Below, in pieces: positions 37,386-53,946 of a stretch of 64,000 bases of DNA (position 1 is its first letter; every line of letters starts with the position of its first letter). A model generated the notes under the pieces. It had not been told where the DNA came from and did not search any database. It worked only from the letters and a program-made list of their open reading frames with translations. Source of the stretch: Shimia biformata (GTDB lineage Bacteria; Pseudomonadota; Alphaproteobacteria; Rhodobacterales; Rhodobacteraceae); NCBI RefSeq assembly GCF_016888515.1, contig NZ_JAFEJK010000001.1:2017475-2081474 (forward strand), given 5' to 3'. Position numbers and translations under genes: made by a program.

Positions 37386-39623
37386 TCATGCCCCGGATTG
37401 CTGGTTTCCAGCCTCGGCTGCTGCGGCGGCGGCGATGGCGGCCTGGTCCTGCTCTGAAATCTCGTCATGCGACTCGATCCCCGGAATGGCAACACGCACC
37501 TCGCGGCGGGCAAAGTCGATCCCGGCCTCTTCGAACTCTTTTTTCACGCGGTTGTAGATTTCCTTGCGGATCATAAACTGCTTGCCGGGTTTGGCCATGA
37601 ACTTGCCCCGGATCACCATGCCGACATCGTCGAAATCAAACACGCCCTGCGACTTGAACGGTTGCAGGAAATCATCCTTGTAAAGCGGATCCTCCAGCAT
37701 CTCGTTGCCGATCTTCTTGAAGATCTTCTTGACCTTGTTGGGGTCGGTGTCGAAGGGCACGGTGAATTTGAGCTTCATGATCACCCAGTCGCGGCTGTAG
37801 TTGGTCAGCTTGGGGATCTCGCCATAAGGGATGGTATGCACCGGGCCGCGATGGTGGCGCAGCTGCATCGAGCGGACCGAGATCTTCTCGACCGCGCCCA
37901 TGGTGCCGTCAATCTCGACATAATCCCCGGTGCGGAAGGCGTCGTCGATCAGGAAGAACACGCCCGACACCACATCCGTCACCAGCTTCTGCGCGCCGAA
38001 ACCGATGGCCAGGCCAAGGATGCCGGCACCGGCCAGAAGCGGGGTGATGTCGATGCCCAGATTGCCGATGGCCAGAAGGCCGAAAATGACGATGATCGCA
38101 CTGCGCGCCGTCAAGAGCATCAGCGGCAGGACCGTCGACAGGCGCGACCCGCTGGCCCCGCCCATCTCGGCGTCGGCGTCCTCCTGGCTCATGCCAAGGG
38201 CGGTCTGCTCGGCGGCCAGGCGGCGGTTGATGTAAAGCGACACGCCCTCATAGACCAGATAGCCCACCACCAGCGTCATCAGGAAGCGGAACAAGTTGTC
38301 ACCGATCCCGGCGTTTTCCAGAAGCAGCGTCTGCAACTTCACGTCCCAGGTGCCGGTGATGATGAAGGCAAGCACCCCGACCGCGATCACCCGGCCGATG
38401 CGCACATAGCTGCGCTTGGTGGCGTGATAGGCGGCTTCGGCGACAGGGCCGCCCCCCGACATCGGCGGCACCAGATGCTTGACCAGCCCGCGAATGCCCG
38501 TGTCGATCACCGGCGCGGCCAAGAGCCAGAACATCGTTGTGTAATGCGCCCCCTTGAGCAGTTGCGCGATCTGCCCCGTGCCGATCAGCGTATTGACCAG
38601 AACCCAGGTGCCAACCGCGACCGCAATCGCAAAACCGGGATAGGACCAGGCAAGTTTCCTGTCAAAACGGGTCTGGTCGGCCTCATCATCCGTGCCCAGC
38701 ATCATCTGGCGCAGCGCATCGCGGGACGACCAGACCAGGTAGATGACATAGACATAGATCAGCGAATCCAGCAGGTAGCCGAGGTTGGTCTCGCCCGGCC
38801 GCAGGCCGTTGTTGAACATGAAGCCCACGAAGAAAAGCGTGAAGCCGGCATAGATCATCAGGCCAACAAGGTTGCGATGCAGGAAGCCCGCGCCCTCGTT
38901 GTCGACATTGACCAGCCGCAGCCGCGGTTTCTGCGGCGCCAGCAGGAAGCGCGACAAGGCCGCGCCAAGACGGGGCATCCAGATCAGGTAATAGACAAAG
39001 GGCTGCGCAAAGCTCAGCTGTGTCGGGTTGAACATCAACGGGGCCAATATGCGCAGCACGGCATAAAACACGATCAGCCCGAAGATTTCCCGCATCAGCC
39101 GGCGGCCCAGGAACTTCAGGGCATCGAAAAGGCTTGCTTCGGCGTCGGTCGAGGACGGCTCTTGCAGCCGGATCAGTTTCCGCGCCGCCAGTTCGACGGC
39201 AAAGGCCATCGCCAATGCCACCAGGATCAGGCCAAACAGCGTCATCACGCCGCTGCCGCCGCCCTGGTTTTCAAAGAACTGGCTGAAAGTGCGCTTGGTC
39301 ACCGACGGCAGAACCGCGATCTTGGCACCGGCTTCGCGCATCGGCGATGTGAAAGCGGTCCAGAACCCCCGTACCCGCGCGGCGATCCCCTGTTCCGCGA
39401 CAACACCTTCGTTTTGCGCTGCCACCGCATCAAGCCGCTCAAGCAGGAAGGCGCGCACCTGGTCGTCGGACATGCGCGCGACCATGGCGTCGATCGCCTC
39501 GGGGGTCATCTGCGCCGGATCGGGCATTTCGGCGGCGGGCGCGTCGGATTGGGCAAAGCCGGGCGCCGCGGCGGTCACGGAAATAAGGAAAATGGCCAAA
39601 AGCAAATGGGCGAATCGAAACAT
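37386..39623 (-). CDS. Large MscS-type mechanosensitive channel
   Basis: A 745-residue channel protein of the extended MscS family. Residues 1-24 look like a signal peptide (LLLAIFLISVTAAAPGFAQ); then comes a soluble region of about 130 residues, about nine membrane segments, and the MscS pore and beta domain (AGILGLAIGFGAQKLVTDVV followed by DDAFRTGDYVEIDGTMGAV and SMQLRHHRGPVHTIPYGEI). The C-terminal domain ends with a charged, alanine-rich tail. Such channels open under hypo-osmotic membrane tension. The overlap with the outer-membrane barrel gene indicates joint expression and perhaps a joint envelope stress role; that is inference. Confidence 0.92.
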   Translation of the reverse strand: MFRFAHLLLAIFLISVTAAAPGFAQSDAPAAEMPDPAQMTPEAIDAMVARMSDDQVRAFLLERLDAVAAQNEGVVAEQGIAARVRGFWTAFTSPMREAGAKIAVLPSVTKRTFSQFFENQGGGSGVMTLFGLILVALAMAFAVELAARKLIRLQEPSSTDAEASLFDALKFLGRRLMREIFGLIVFYAVLRILAPLMFNPTQLSFAQPFVYYLIWMPRLGAALSRFLLAPQKPRLRLVNVDNEGAGFLHRNLVGLMIYAGFTLFFVGFMFNNGLRPGETNLGYLLDSLIYVYVIYLVWSSRDALRQMMLGTDDEADQTRFDRKLAWSYPGFAIAVAVGTWVLVNTLIGTGQIAQLLKGAHYTTMFWLLAAPVIDTGIRGLVKHLVPPMSGGGPVAEAAYHATKRSYVRIGRVIAVGVLAFIITGTWDVKLQTLLLENAGIGDNLFRFLMTLVVGYLVYEGVSLYINRRLAAEQTALGMSQEDADAEMGGASGSRLSTVLPLMLLTARSAIIVIFGLLAIGNLGIDITPLLAGAGILGLAIGFGAQKLVTDVVSGVFFLIDDAFRTGDYVEIDGTMGAVEKISVRSMQLRHHRGPVHTIPYGEIPKLTNYSRDWVIMKLKFTVPFDTDPNKVKKIFKKIGNEMLEDPLYKDDFLQPFKSQGVFDFDDVGMVIRGKFMAKPGKQFMIRKEIYNRVKKEFEEAGIDFARREVRVAIPGIESHDEISEQDQAAIAAAAAAEAGNQQSGA

Positions 39624-39736
39624 GGTCTGTCCCTGATGGATTTTTGTGTTTTGCGCAGTTTAGCAATCGCGTCGGCAATTGCACCGCTTTAATCGCGCGC
39701 CGAATTTCGGCGCTTTGGGCAAATTATGTGCAGGGC

Positions 39737-39765
39737 AAAAAAAAGGGCCGAGCATAAGCTCGGCC
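39737..39765 (-). terminator. Strong rho-independent terminator of the candidate small RNA
   Basis: GGCCGAGC at 39746-39753 pairs perfectly with GCTCGGCC at 39758-39765 around ATAA. On the minus strand the stem is followed by eight T (39744-39737). It is the strongest terminator in the window by stem and T run. Confidence 0.88.
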
Positions 39766-39822
39766 TTAAGTCCAACAGGGAGGTATGAAGATGATGCGCA
39801 TTTAAGCAATCACCGTCTTCGA
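39737..39822 (-). ncRNA. Candidate trans-acting small RNA
   Basis: In the 284-base gap between the MscS gene start and the LysR gene stop, the minus strand has a sigma70-like promoter (TTGATC at 39856-39851, 17-base spacer, TATTTC at 39833-39828), so transcription should begin near 39822. About 40 bases downstream lies ACCTCCCT (39784-39777), complementary to Shine-Dalgarno sequences, and then a strong terminator whose T run ends at 39737. The product would be about 86 nt, the usual size of Hfq-dependent small RNAs with an anti-Shine-Dalgarno region. An alternative is a processed 3' UTR of the LysR mRNA. No homology could be tested. Confidence 0.6.
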
Positions 39823-39827
39823 GAGCT

Positions 39828-39856
39828 GAAATAGGTATCGGATATGAATCGATCAA
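39828..39856 (-). promoter_or_regulatory. Sigma70-like promoter of the candidate small RNA
   Basis: On the minus strand TTGATC (39856-39851) and TATTTC (39833-39828) are separated by 17 bases. Four of six bases fit each consensus hexamer. The promoter lies downstream of the LysR stop and is not explained by any coding gene. Confidence 0.5.
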
Positions 39857-39907
39857 GGAAAAAAATGCCGCACCTGCAGCATTGCTGCTATGCGCCTGGC
39901 GCATGGC

Positions 39908-40813
39908 TCACAGGTTTCCTTGCTCTTTCAACTGCTTGCGATGTGAAATGATCTCTTCCTGCACGAAATCGCGGAACACAGAAATGCGTTTCGAGTGCCG
40001 CAACTCCTCTGGATAGGCCAGAAAAACAGGCACTTCCGCGCTTTCGAAGTCGGGCAGGACGCGCTTCAGTTCAGGGAAATCCTGCAGCACATAGTCCGGC
40101 AGAACCCCGATGCCGAGATTGTAAAGAACCGCGTGCAGCACCCCGAAATAGTTGTTCACCGACAGTCGGGACGAGATGTTATAGGCCATCAATTGATGCA
40201 CCATCGACGCGCCTGCGCCGACCTGTGTCGAGGTGGTGTTCTGGCTGATCAGACGGTGCCCGGCAAGGTCCTCGAGCGTCTGAGGTGTGCCGTGGTCCTT
40301 CAGGTACTGTTCGGTAGCATATAGCCGCATCCGCACGCTCATCAGGCGCTTGCGCACCAGGTCGGCCTGGCTGGGTTCTTTCATGCGAATGGCGACATCG
40401 GCCTCGCGCATGGGCAGGTCCAGCACGCGTTCTTCAAGCATCAGGTCGATATTGAGGTCGGGGTATTTCTCATAAAGTTTCGACAGGCGTGGAGCCAGCC
40501 AGAGCGTGCCGAAACCCGTGGTCGTGGTGACGCGCAGCTCACCGAACACTTCTTCCTCGGAATCGCGGATGCGCGCGGCGGCGGCATCCAGCCGCTTGGC
40601 CATGGCACTGGTGGCATCAAACAGCAACTCGCCCTGTTCGGTCAGAATCAGCCCGCGCGCATGGCGGTGAAACAGGGTGGTGTTCAGGCTTTCCTCAAGG
40701 GCGCGCACCTGTCGAGACACCGCAGATTGCGACAAATGCAGGACATCGCCGGCATGGGTCAGGCTGCCGGCATCGGCAACCGCGTGAAATATCCTGAGCT
40801 TGTCCCAATCCAT
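39908..40813 (-). CDS. LysR family transcriptional regulator
   Basis: A 301-residue LysR-type regulator. The N-terminal helix-turn-helix is at about residues 5-60 (LRIFHAVADAGSLTHAGD, then LHLSQSAVSRQVRALEESL), and the effector domain contains ELRVTTTTGFGTLWLAPRLS. It is divergent from the indolepyruvate oxidoreductase gene with about 170 bp between the starts. That region holds an inverted repeat GGTCA-N7-TGACC, so regulation of that gene is possible but not shown. Confidence 0.9.
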   Translation of the reverse strand: MDWDKLRIFHAVADAGSLTHAGDVLHLSQSAVSRQVRALEESLNTTLFHRHARGLILTEQGELLFDATSAMAKRLDAAAARIRDSEEEVFGELRVTTTTGFGTLWLAPRLSKLYEKYPDLNIDLMLEERVLDLPMREADVAIRMKEPSQADLVRKRLMSVRMRLYATEQYLKDHGTPQTLEDLAGHRLISQNTTSTQVGAGASMVHQLMAYNISSRLSVNNYFGVLHAVLYNLGIGVLPDYVLQDFPELKRVLPDFESAEVPVFLAYPEELRHSKRISVFRDFVQEEIISHRKQLKEQGNL

Positions 40814-40984: not shown

Positions 40985-43900
40985 GTGAGCATTCAGAAAG
41001 TTTCTCTGAGCGACCGTTTTGATCTGACGAAATCACCGGTCCTGTTGAACGGAACCCAGGCGCTTGTGCGTCTGATGATCATGCAAAAGGAACGCGACCG
41101 GAAGGCCGGGCTGAATACGGCCGGTTATGTCACCGGGTATCGCGGTTCGCCGCTTGGCGCGGTGGACAGCTGGATGATGCGCGCCGAAAAACAGCTGAAA
41201 GAGGCCGATGTCCTGTTTCAGTCCGGCCTGAACGAAGACCTTGCCGCAACCCAGCTTTGGGGGTCGCAACAGGCCGAATTGCGCGGCGAGGGCAAGTTCG
41301 ACGGGGTTTTCGGCCTCTGGTATGGCAAGGGGCCGGGCGTCGACCGCACCGGCGACGTGATGCGGCATGCCAACATGGCAGGCACCTCGCAGCATGGCGG
41401 TGTCTTGATGGCCATGGGGGATGACCACACCGGCGAAAGTTCGACCGTGCTGCACCAGTCGGAATGGGCCTTGGTGGATGCCTATATGCCGGTGGTTTCG
41501 CCTGCGGGCGTGCAGGAGATCCTGGACTATGGCATCTATGGCATCGCGCTCAGCCGCTTTGCCGGGGTCTGGGTGGGTCTCAAGACCATGAAAGACACAA
41601 TCGAGGCAACCGCGGTGGTCGATGGCAACCCGGACCGGGTGAAGCTTGTGCTGCCCGAGTTTGACATGCCCGACGGCGGTCTGAACATCCGCCTTGGCGA
41701 CACGCCCCACGCGCAGGAAGCGCGGATGATCGACTATAAACGCTTTGCCGCCGAAGCCTTCAGCCACGCCAACAAGATGGACAAACGCGTCTGGGGCAAG
41801 CCCGGCGCCAAGATCGGCTTTGTCGCAGCCGGAAAGAACTGGCTTGATCTGCAACATGCGCTCAGCCTGCTGGGAGTGACCGAGGCCGAGGCCGAACGCC
41901 TTGGCATCACCACCTACAAGGTCGGCCAGACCTTCCCGCTGGACATGAAGGGCTTTCACGAATGGGCCGAGGGGCTGGACCTGATCGTGGTGGTCGAGGA
42001 AAAGCGCAAGCTGATCGAGATCCAGATCAAGGAAGCGCTGTTCGATGACAACCGCTATCGCGTCTATGGCTGGTACAAGGGCGGGGCAGGCGGTCTGCAC
42101 CGCGAGGAACTGTTCCCCACGCGCGGCGCATTGGACCCGGTCTGGATCGCGCAGAAACTGGGCGAGATCCTGATCGAAGAGGGCCGCGGCACCGAAGGCA
42201 TCAAGGCCGGGCTTCAAACGCTCGAAGCCGCACGCCGTGCCGACAATGCCGAGGATATCGCCCAGCGGACCCCGTGGTTCTGCTCTGGCTGTCCGCATAA
42301 CTCGTCCACCAGGGTGCCCGACGGCAGCCGCGCCTATGCCGGGATCGGCTGTCACTACATGGTGCAGTGGATGGACCGCGAGACGATGGGCTTCACCCAT
42401 ATGGGCGGCGAGGGCGCGAACTGGATCGGCGAGGCGCCGTTTTCCAAGACAAAACACGTGTTCCAGAACCTCGGTGACGGGACCTATAACCACTCGGGCG
42501 TTCAGGCGATCCGCGCGGCGCTGGCGGCAAATACCAACATCACCTACAAGATCCTGTTCAACGACGCCGTGGCGATGACCGGCGGGCAGGCCAATGACGG
42601 CGGGCTTTCCCCGCAGAAAATCGCCGCCGAACTGCGCGCCATGGGGGTCGAGAAGGTCTTCGTCGTCTATGACGAGAAAGAAGATGTGCAAAAAGACGCC
42701 TTCCCCAGGGATGTGACGTTCCATGAACGCGCCGACCTGATGAAGGTTCAGGAAGAATGCCGTGAAATCAGCGGTGTATCGGCCATAGTTTATGTCCAGA
42801 CCTGCGCCAATGAAAAGCGCCGCCGCCGCAAGCGCGGCAAGTTCCCGGACCCGGATCGCCGGGTGTTTATCAATACCGACATCTGCGAAGGCTGCGGCGA
42901 TTGCGGGGTGCAGTCGAACTGCGTGTCGATCGAGCCGGTCGAGACCGAGCTTGGCCGCAAGCGGATGATCAACCAGTCGTCCTGCAACAAGGATTTCTCG
43001 TGTCTCAACGGGTTCTGCCCCTCCTTCGTCACCGTCGAGGGCGCCACGATCCGCAAAGAGGAAACCAAGGACCTCGACCTGCCCGACCTGCCCATGCCCG
43101 AGATCAAGACCATCGAGGGCACCCATAACGTCGTCATCACCGGCGTCGGCGGGACCGGCGTCGTGACCATCGGCGCGGTGCTGGCGCAGGCCGCGCAGAT
43201 CGACGGCAAGGCCGCCGGCATGATGGAGATGGCGGGCCTTGCCCAGAAGGGCGGCGCGGTGCATATCCACTGCCGCCTTGCCGAAACGCCCGAGGACATC
43301 AGCGCCATTCGCGTCGCCACCGGCGAGGCCGACGCGCTGATCGGCGGCGACCTTGTGGTTTCCGCGGGCGCCAAGACGCTCGGCCTGACCTCCACGGGGC
43401 GCACCGGGGCGGTTGTGAACAGCCACGAGATCATCACCGGAGAGTTCACCCGCAATACCGAATTCCGCTTGCCGACCAGTCGCTTGCAGCTTGCTCTTGA
43501 AGCTCGGATCAAGGACGGTCTGGCGCTGTTTGATGCCTCGGAACTGGCGCGGATCGTCATGGGGGATTCGATCTATTCCAACATGATGGTCTTTGGCGGC
43601 GCGTGGCAGCTGGGGCTGATCCCGATCAGCCACGAGGCGATCCATCAGGCGATCGAACTGAACGGCGCGGCGGTCGAACGCAACAAGCGCGCGTTTGAGG
43701 TCGGACGCTGGGCGGTGGCCCACCCGGAAGAGGCCGCGCGCCTTGTCACGCCGAACGTGGTGGCAAAGCCCAAAACGCTGGACGAACAGATCGCGTTCCG
43801 CGCCGACCACCTGATCGCCTATCAGGGCAAGGGGCTGGCGAAGAAATACCGCAAGCTTCTGGACCAGATCGACGATCCGCGCCTGAAAGAGGCGGTCGCC

Positions 43901-44398
43901 AAGGGCTATCACAAGCTGCTGACCTACAAGGATGAATACGAGGTCGCGCGCCTGCATCTTGAAACGCGGAAGAAGGCGGAACAGACCTTTGACGGCGATT
44001 TCACCCTGAAATACCACCTGTCGCCGCCGCTTCTGGCCAAGGAAGGGTCCAACGGACGCCCCGAGAAAAAGGAATACGGCGCGACGATGGAGCGGATGTT
44101 TGGCATTCTGGCCAGGCTCAAGCGCCTGCGCGGGACGCCACTGGATGTCTTTGGCTATTCCGCCGAACGCAAGATGGAACGGGCGCTGATCAGGCAATAC
44201 GAGGCCGACATGAAGGCGCTGATTGCCGAACATGGCAAATCGGCCTCTGATGCCGCCGTCGCGCTTGCCGAGCTGCCGTTGCAGATCAGGGGGTTCGGCC
44301 CGGTGAAGCAGGCCAATGAGCAAAAGGCCGCCAAACAGCGCGAGGCACTTCTGGCGGCGCTGAAACAGGGCGATGCGCCGCTGGCGGCGGCCGAATAA
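40985..44398 (+). CDS. Indolepyruvate:ferredoxin oxidoreductase, fused subunits
   Basis: Thiamine-diphosphate and iron-sulfur enzyme that oxidatively decarboxylates aryl pyruvates, such as indolepyruvate from tryptophan, to aryl-acetyl-CoA. At 1137 residues it is the fused IorAB type. The N-terminal pyrimidine-binding domain includes GYVTGYRGSPLGAVD; the thiamine-binding part contains CSGCPHNSSTRVPDGSRAYA and GGEGANWIG; a [4Fe-4S] site is CEGCGDCGVQSNC; the gamma domain begins GVGGTGVVTIGAVLAQAAQ. The GTG at 40985 follows GAGGGGAG. Its role in Roseobacter-type bacteria is usually aromatic amino acid degradation. It is likely a single-gene unit, with a hairpin after the stop. Confidence 0.93.
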   Translation: MSIQKVSLSDRFDLTKSPVLLNGTQALVRLMIMQKERDRKAGLNTAGYVTGYRGSPLGAVDSWMMRAEKQLKEADVLFQSGLNEDLAATQLWGSQQAELRGEGKFDGVFGLWYGKGPGVDRTGDVMRHANMAGTSQHGGVLMAMGDDHTGESSTVLHQSEWALVDAYMPVVSPAGVQEILDYGIYGIALSRFAGVWVGLKTMKDTIEATAVVDGNPDRVKLVLPEFDMPDGGLNIRLGDTPHAQEARMIDYKRFAAEAFSHANKMDKRVWGKPGAKIGFVAAGKNWLDLQHALSLLGVTEAEAERLGITTYKVGQTFPLDMKGFHEWAEGLDLIVVVEEKRKLIEIQIKEALFDDNRYRVYGWYKGGAGGLHREELFPTRGALDPVWIAQKLGEILIEEGRGTEGIKAGLQTLEAARRADNAEDIAQRTPWFCSGCPHNSSTRVPDGSRAYAGIGCHYMVQWMDRETMGFTHMGGEGANWIGEAPFSKTKHVFQNLGDGTYNHSGVQAIRAALAANTNITYKILFNDAVAMTGGQANDGGLSPQKIAAELRAMGVEKVFVVYDEKEDVQKDAFPRDVTFHERADLMKVQEECREISGVSAIVYVQTCANEKRRRRKRGKFPDPDRRVFINTDICEGCGDCGVQSNCVSIEPVETELGRKRMINQSSCNKDFSCLNGFCPSFVTVEGATIRKEETKDLDLPDLPMPEIKTIEGTHNVVITGVGGTGVVTIGAVLAQAAQIDGKAAGMMEMAGLAQKGGAVHIHCRLAETPEDISAIRVATGEADALIGGDLVVSAGAKTLGLTSTGRTGAVVNSHEIITGEFTRNTEFRLPTSRLQLALEARIKDGLALFDASELARIVMGDSIYSNMMVFGGAWQLGLIPISHEAIHQAIELNGAAVERNKRAFEVGRWAVAHPEEAARLVTPNVVAKPKTLDEQIAFRADHLIAYQGKGLAKKYRKLLDQIDDPRLKEAVAKGYHKLLTYKDEYEVARLHLETRKKAEQTFDGDFTLKYHLSPPLLAKEGSNGRPEKKEYGATMERMFGILARLKRLRGTPLDVFGYSAERKMERALIRQYEADMKALIAEHGKSASDAAVALAELPLQIRGFGPVKQANEQKAAKQREALLAALKQGDAPLAAAE

Positions 44399-53731: not shown

Positions 53732-53946
53732 ATGCACTCCTGTTGTCATGCTCGTGCAAACCCCGGCGGGGTGCGATGGCCGCCCTTGTCGACGGCACAA
53801 GCCAGAAGGCAGGTCGTCGTAATATCAAACAGGTTTAGCGTGGTCAGATGACCGGCGGCGCCTCGGTGAACTGCGGACCGTGATGCGCTAGATAGGGGCA
53901 GGGGGATGGTTTGGCAAGAGGACAAGGGCCGCGCCCGAACCTATCA

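Follow-up and report, generated by a model that had tools for sequence, protein, structure and literature searches.

The 86-nt RNA encoded on the minus strand between a LysR-type regulator gene and an MscS-type channel gene is, as judged from its sequence and gene order, an orthologue of SorY (RSs1543), a small RNA known from Rhodobacter sphaeroides (Table 1; the window is the whole stretch of 64,000 nt that was analysed). The best explanation of the locus as a whole, to which we give a probability of about 0.85, is that it is the SorY gene of this Rhodobacteraceae species and that its product would serve as a stress RNA blocking ribosome binding sites. Orthology, promoter type, secondary structure and an open seed are established here, whereas regulation and action, including a trans-acting mechanism in this organism, are presumed from R. 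sphaeroides SorY and Caulobacter SisA. SorY itself was already known; the additions are its almost universal occurrence across the family, the cause of its missing annotation and a proposed union with the alphaR8 RNAs.

Table 1. Features of the small-RNA locus and its neighbours (positions within the window)
Feature	Position	Strand	Basis or remark
SorY-orthologous small RNA, 86 nt	39737..39822	-	RF02651 full-length match, 67.5 bits; start 39822 by homology
Promoter C-TTGATC-N17-TATTTC, RpoHI/RpoHII type	39828..39857	-	base conservation in 129 orthologues compared with published logos
TTGATC, 17-base spacer, TATTTC	39856-39851 (TTGATC); 39833-39828 (TATTTC)	-	sequence
5' hairpin, GAAG... paired with ...CUUC	39787..39820	-	folding of 126 distinct orthologous segments
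Single-stranded seed UACCUCCCUGUUGGACU	39769..39785	-	conservation behind LysR orthologues and ensemble pairing
Anti-Shine-Dalgarno core ACCUCCCU (ACCTCCCT in DNA)	39784-39777	-	inside the seed
Rho-independent terminator	39737..39765	-	8-bp stem 39765-39746 with 7 G-C pairs, then T8 at 39744-39737
Terminator-like stem of the LysR gene, then T run	39864..39883	-	directly upstream of the small-RNA promoter
LysR-type regulator gene	39908..40813	-	Pfam HTH_1, LysR_substrate; conserved upstream neighbour, same strand as the small RNA
Indolepyruvate ferredoxin oxidoreductase-type gene	40985..44398	+	Pfam POR, TPP_enzyme_C, DUF6537; divergent from LysR
MscS-type channel gene	37386..39623	-	Pfam MS_channel; incidental downstream neighbour of the small RNA

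Identification of the RNA

The initial annotation had proposed an independent small RNA that has a promoter of its own and carries an anti-Shine-Dalgarno segment, a proposal that the present analysis supports, while the known status of the RNA as SorY had been missed. The promoter, the ACCTCCCT segment and the terminator that it described are all present, right to the base, and the 86-nt transcript that it drew (39822-39737) has a predicted start that corresponds by homology exactly to the one mapped for SorY. Its description of the terminator as the strongest in the window holds for the T run, since the T8 behind the stem is the only one there and the longest T run within the window, but not for the hairpin, as several hairpins with shorter T runs are more stable. 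The CCTCC segment and the terminator, by whose conservation in related genomes the proposal was to be judged, are both conserved, and the function that had been guessed was right in kind.

At Rfam's curated cut-offs the site is silent, and it was a permissive search that led to the SorY model. RF02651 (SorY) matches the RNA over model positions 1-83 of 83 with 67.5 bits (E 1e-13; 3.5e-13 for the whole genome), compared with 39.1 bits for RF02784 (SorX) and 28.6 bits for RF00519 (mmgR/suhB, alphaR8; E 3e-4 in a 271-nt search, cut-off 41). The score of 67.5 bits lies below the RF02651 gathering score of 111 bits, which is a curator's cut-off and not a biological trait, because the hairpin sequence differs from that of R. 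sphaeroides SorY. Among the 101 genomes searched with the SorY model only R. sphaeroides exceeds 111 bits, and orthologues at the LysR position in Rhodobacteraceae score about 32-69 bits; the cut-off thus admits R. sphaeroides alone, and the SorY orthologue consequently stays unannotated. The sole match above it lies at G051:C4:1632645-1632727, with a weaker match in the same genome at 2598232; because these sit at the published R. sphaeroides starts of SorY (1,632,642) and SorX (2,598,224; PMC6238624), this genome is R. sphaeroides 2.4.1. Its SorY begins TCGAAG, and the T homologous to that first base in the window is 39822. The R. sphaeroides RNA is a primary transcript with a mapped start; it is bound by Hfq and undergoes no processing (PMC6238624, PMC8307010, PMC5036791). 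An 84-nt RNA of Paracoccus denitrificans, Intergenic 134, confirmed by RT-PCR and matching an R. sphaeroides RNA in its context (PMC5107571), may be the same RNA as SorY.

Several signals at the locus exceed chance. The fold of the small RNA has a z of -3.1 against shuffled sequences, two terminators occur in 320 nt where shuffled sequence gives 0.3, and the 17-mer ACCTCCCTGTTGGACTT occurs a single time in the window, with 0.05 occurrences expected at up to 3 mismatches. Elsewhere in the window, at 53827-53880 on the minus strand, the COG3860 RNA motif (RF02940) gives a match of 62.8 bits, above its cut-off.

Promoter and secondary structure

A CTTG lies upstream of the small RNA in 124 of 129 orthologues, compared with 27% in shuffles, and at fixed spacing from it the -10 side is conserved in the same 129 loci as C (68%), T (94%), A (94%) and T (96%). 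The published RpoHI/RpoHII logos emphasise C-37, TTG, C-14, T-13, A-12 and T-9 (PMC3441632). By their spacing the conserved bases fall on these logo positions, the elements lying 2 nt closer relative to the mapped SorY start. A strict sigma-70 scan does not recover this promoter, whose sequence fits the RpoH type better. RpoH and RpoD promoters look alike in alphaproteobacteria. Because of this similarity, the sigma factor assignment leans on data for R. sphaeroides, where SorY is reported to be under RpoHI/RpoHII control (PMC5036791, PMC8307010).

In the fold of the RNA a 5' hairpin (39820-39787) comes first, followed by an open stretch, AUACCUCCCUGUUGGACUU, and then by the terminator. The seed core is mostly unpaired in the ensemble, with a minimum of 0.31 at one C, and the GG of the UUGG in the seed is mostly paired. 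Across 126 distinct 46-nt orthologous segments the 5' hairpin gives a mean z of -2.96, with z below -1 in 99%; its sequence varies among orthologues while its folding is retained in nearly all. These values derive from single-sequence folding against shuffles, an approach chosen because RNAalifold, run on the sequence alignment, missed the helix, alignments of mixed orientation or with divergent 5' parts being useless for covariation; support for the helix thus comes from these folding statistics and not from formal covariation. In an alignment of 41 orthologues the terminator stem is preserved, with both-sided changes at a few pairs.

Phylogenetic distribution and gene order

The small RNA occupies the minus-strand gap between the LysR stop at 39908 and the MscS start at 39623, on the same strand as LysR and 86 nt behind its stop codon. 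In R. sphaeroides, and in 129 of 158 core-bearing loci, the RNA lies behind an orthologue of this LysR gene and on its strand; many of the 158 were fetched by the exact 17-mer, and seed conservation among them is therefore partly by construction. Beyond LysR, the divergent indolepyruvate oxidoreductase gene is found in most of the LysR-linked loci and likewise in R. sphaeroides, so that the window RNA shares the defining gene order of SorY, downstream of a LysR gene divergent from indolepyruvate oxidoreductase. An MscS gene follows in a minority of orthologous loci and is absent there at R. sphaeroides SorY. In the LysR gene beside sorY in R. sphaeroides (G051:C4:1631580-1632476), and likewise in G026 and G057, one TGA falls within the matched stretch, which may simply reflect an alignment running beyond the stop codon.

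In an unbiased survey, the starting set consisted of LysR orthologues picked irrespective of the RNA. The orthologue is present in 58 of 61 genera, and the downstream region was read in 56 cases, of which 47 contain CTCCCTGTTGGA and four more (G013, G004, G017 and G008) carry an altered core before a terminator. In R. sphaeroides and G026 a SorY match lies directly behind LysR by coordinates. The survey thus places the core after LysR in 49 of the 58 LysR-bearing genera and an altered core in a further four; in G034 the RNA is located away from LysR. DNA of the small RNA was matched in 135 of 149 genera of Rhodobacteraceae. A SorY-type RNA is nearly universal in the family. Rhodobacteraceae are abundant in the sea, yet standard annotation overlooks their SorY-type RNA, the Rfam cut-off being fitted to a single species. 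An apparently complementary distribution of SorY and alphaR8 was dropped, since three genomes without a SorY match carry a diverged SorY-like RNA behind LysR.

Proposed function and candidate targets

The small RNA probably blocks the translation of transporter messages under stress. By analogy, RpoHI and RpoHII would produce it under singlet oxygen or heat and Hfq would bind it; the open ACCUCCCUG would then pair with AGGGAGG-type Shine-Dalgarno regions, chiefly of nutrient-uptake genes, blocking ribosome binding and lowering message levels. The consequence would be less carbon uptake and a lighter load on the TCA cycle under oxidative stress. In R. sphaeroides takP mRNA is the target through which the stress-linked SorY limits the import of malate (PMC6238624, PMC8307010, PMC5036791), and in Caulobacter the UUUCCUCCCU of SisA pairs with 5' UTRs and represses mRNAs, with support from compensatory mutation (PMC12559287). 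The window RNA probably works alongside two same-seed sibling RNAs that would be driven by other promoters.

Within its own genome, and leaving the gene itself aside, CAGGGAGG precedes an ATG by 3-8 nt at 17 sites, compared with none for the reversed pattern, a count that proves nothing alone since CAGGGAGG is also a strong ribosome binding site and enriched at start codons anyway. Among these 17 candidate targets are four periplasmic solute-binding proteins (DctP, TctC, SBP_bac_1 and Peripla_BP_6) and a branched-chain permease, for which 11 consecutive bases match. Their start regions are at G000:C10:939949 (DctP), 2433343 (TctC), 163011 (SBP_bac_1), 2511450 (Peripla_BP_6) and 2514266 (permease). 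The set would fit a role in damping uptake. The candidates are accessory genes, which limits the comparison of the pairing among relatives; one DctP orthologue (G031) keeps ACAGGGAGGA and one Peripla_BP_6 orthologue (G061) is without it.

Alternative explanations

The initial annotation offered a processed 3' UTR of the LysR mRNA as the alternative; RNase E would then release the RNA in the way that it frees SorX from the ompR-1 mRNA. This reading draws on the position of the RNA on the LysR strand, 86 nt behind the stop codon, and on the fact that its sibling SorX is made in this way (PMC6238624). It is very unlikely, given that a terminator (39883-39864) intervenes between LysR and the small-RNA promoter, that 129 orthologues keep this promoter with its elements at constant spacing, that R. 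sphaeroides SorY has its own mapped start and is unprocessed (PMC6238624, PMC8307010), and that the RNA occurs apart from LysR in G034. That the RNA belongs to the SorX family instead of SorY would accord with the common seed and the RF02784 match of 39.1 bits; this is highly improbable, however, because an OmpR-type gene elsewhere in the genome is followed by a distinct SorX orthologue (80.5 bits), the RNA itself scores much better with the SorY model, at 67.5 bits, and the gene order is that of SorY. By definition SorX occupies the 3' UTR of a gene for an OmpR-type response regulator, and the neighbour here is LysR.

The activity of the RNA might be set mainly by an RNA sponge and not by its own promoter, since the seed type is common to SisA-D, whose activity is set by CrfA in Caulobacter (PMC12559287); R. 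sphaeroides SorY, however, is reported to be controlled by RpoHI/RpoHII and to have an mRNA target, takP (PMC5036791, PMC6238624), and such a sponge is unlikely to be the main determinant. A 71-codon frame on the minus strand (39689-39904) is open across the RNA, and a short protein might be read from it, but its start lies upstream of the promoter, the frame runs through the terminator, and the orthologous hairpins vary in length and sequence with pairing retained, leaving this possibility negligible.

Relation to SorX, alphaR8 and other known RNAs

The window RNA falls outside alphaR8 (RF00519: MmgR of Sinorhizobium, SisA-D of Caulobacter) on both the defining 10-mer and the score. In place of the alphaR8 10-mer UUUCCUCCCU (PMC12559287), followed by AGACUU, it has AUACCUCCCU, identical at 8 of 10 positions, followed by GUUGGACUU, and its RF00519 score of 28.6 bits does not exceed 41. 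A hairpin upstream of the 10-mer position and a Rho-independent terminator are nevertheless present, as alphaR8 demands. It probably works like an alphaR8 member and probably descends from one.

SorY, SorX and alphaR8 (MmgR, SisA-D) appear to form one lineage, because intermediate sequences, a hybrid third copy and alphaR8-model matches at LysR loci connect them. Intermediates between alphaR8 (UUUCCUCCCUAGACUU) and the open stretch of SorY lie behind LysR in G017 (UUUCCUCCCUGUCUGACUU) and G008 (AUCCUCCCUGUCUAGACUU); the exact alphaR8 10-mer is joined to a SorY-like tail in the relative G017 and in the third copy of this genome; and with the RF00519 model about 13 relatives give a match at their LysR-linked locus (E below 1e-3 per genome), in every case under the cut-off. 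In G004 (C832), G008 (C252) and G017 (C56) a canonical alphaR8 RNA lies elsewhere in the genome in addition to the intermediate RNA behind LysR, which makes these loci useful for dating the origin of SorY. There is no clan linking SorY, SorX and alphaR8 in Rfam's table, and a 2025 paper on SisA names MmgR as the sole alphaR8 RNA characterised earlier (PMC12559287).

It seems likely that SorY and SorX did not arise separately within Rhodobacter but are a derived branch of the class-wide alphaR8 family, in which siblings with one seed each respond to a different signal and converge on nutrient-uptake messages, the signals being RpoHI/RpoHII for SorY and an FNR-like box or OmpR-type gene for SorX. 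Should SorY and SorX belong with alphaR8, the findings on PHB storage (MmgR), on carbon starvation and the sponge CrfA (SisA-D) and on defence against singlet oxygen (SorY, SorX) would all concern a single RNA lineage, and the question arises whether same-seed siblings have common targets and differ only in the timing of their synthesis.

The SorX orthologue of this genome (G000:C10:542449-542520, plus strand; L200:2950-3021) lies above the Rfam cut-off and has the sequence TTGACGTGGATCAA. In SorX-type RNAs of several roseobacters, in this genome and at L040, L051, L052, L071, L072, L100 and L109, an FNR-like box, TTGAYNNNNRTCAA, lies 50-95 nt ahead of the seed; the box was found at none of the 129 SorY loci. 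Its presence suggests an oxygen-controlled promoter for an RNA known in R. sphaeroides as a processed 3' UTR. The third sibling (G000:C10:2159612-2159674, minus strand; L201:3113-3175), GUUUCCUCCCUGUUGGACUGGGCCG, combines the exact alphaR8 10-mer with a SorY tail and sits in a gap flanked by a divergent ATPase-like gene on one side and a secreted-protein gene of 195 codons on the other. A further exact seed match at G000:C10:2349099 is without a terminator and was taken as chance.

Among the characterised systems, alphaR8 RNAs have in common with the window RNA a weak hairpin, an open CCUCCCU and a terminator, and the two match again in the downstream GACUU(G)GGCCG. Most single-copy alphaR8 members adjoin an N-formylglutamate amidohydrolase gene, whereas the window RNA adjoins LysR; anti-Shine-Dalgarno action is demonstrated for SisA, and the window RNA has the same open core. 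SorX (RF02784) of R. sphaeroides has an identical seed core, CCUCCCUGUUGGA, with the terminator right behind it; unlike the window RNA, it forms part of an OmpR-type gene's 3' UTR, from which RNase E excises it, and it has another hairpin. CcsR1-4 of R. sphaeroides are, like SorY, RpoHI/RpoHII-dependent, Hfq-bound stress RNAs (PMC5036791, PMC8307010); unlike SorY, they are processed from the ccaF1 transcript, and no match to them was found here. With R. sphaeroides SorY, from which it differs in its hairpin sequence and in the MscS gene downstream, the window RNA has in common its gene order, promoter, start base, 5' hairpin, 17-nt seed, terminator and length.
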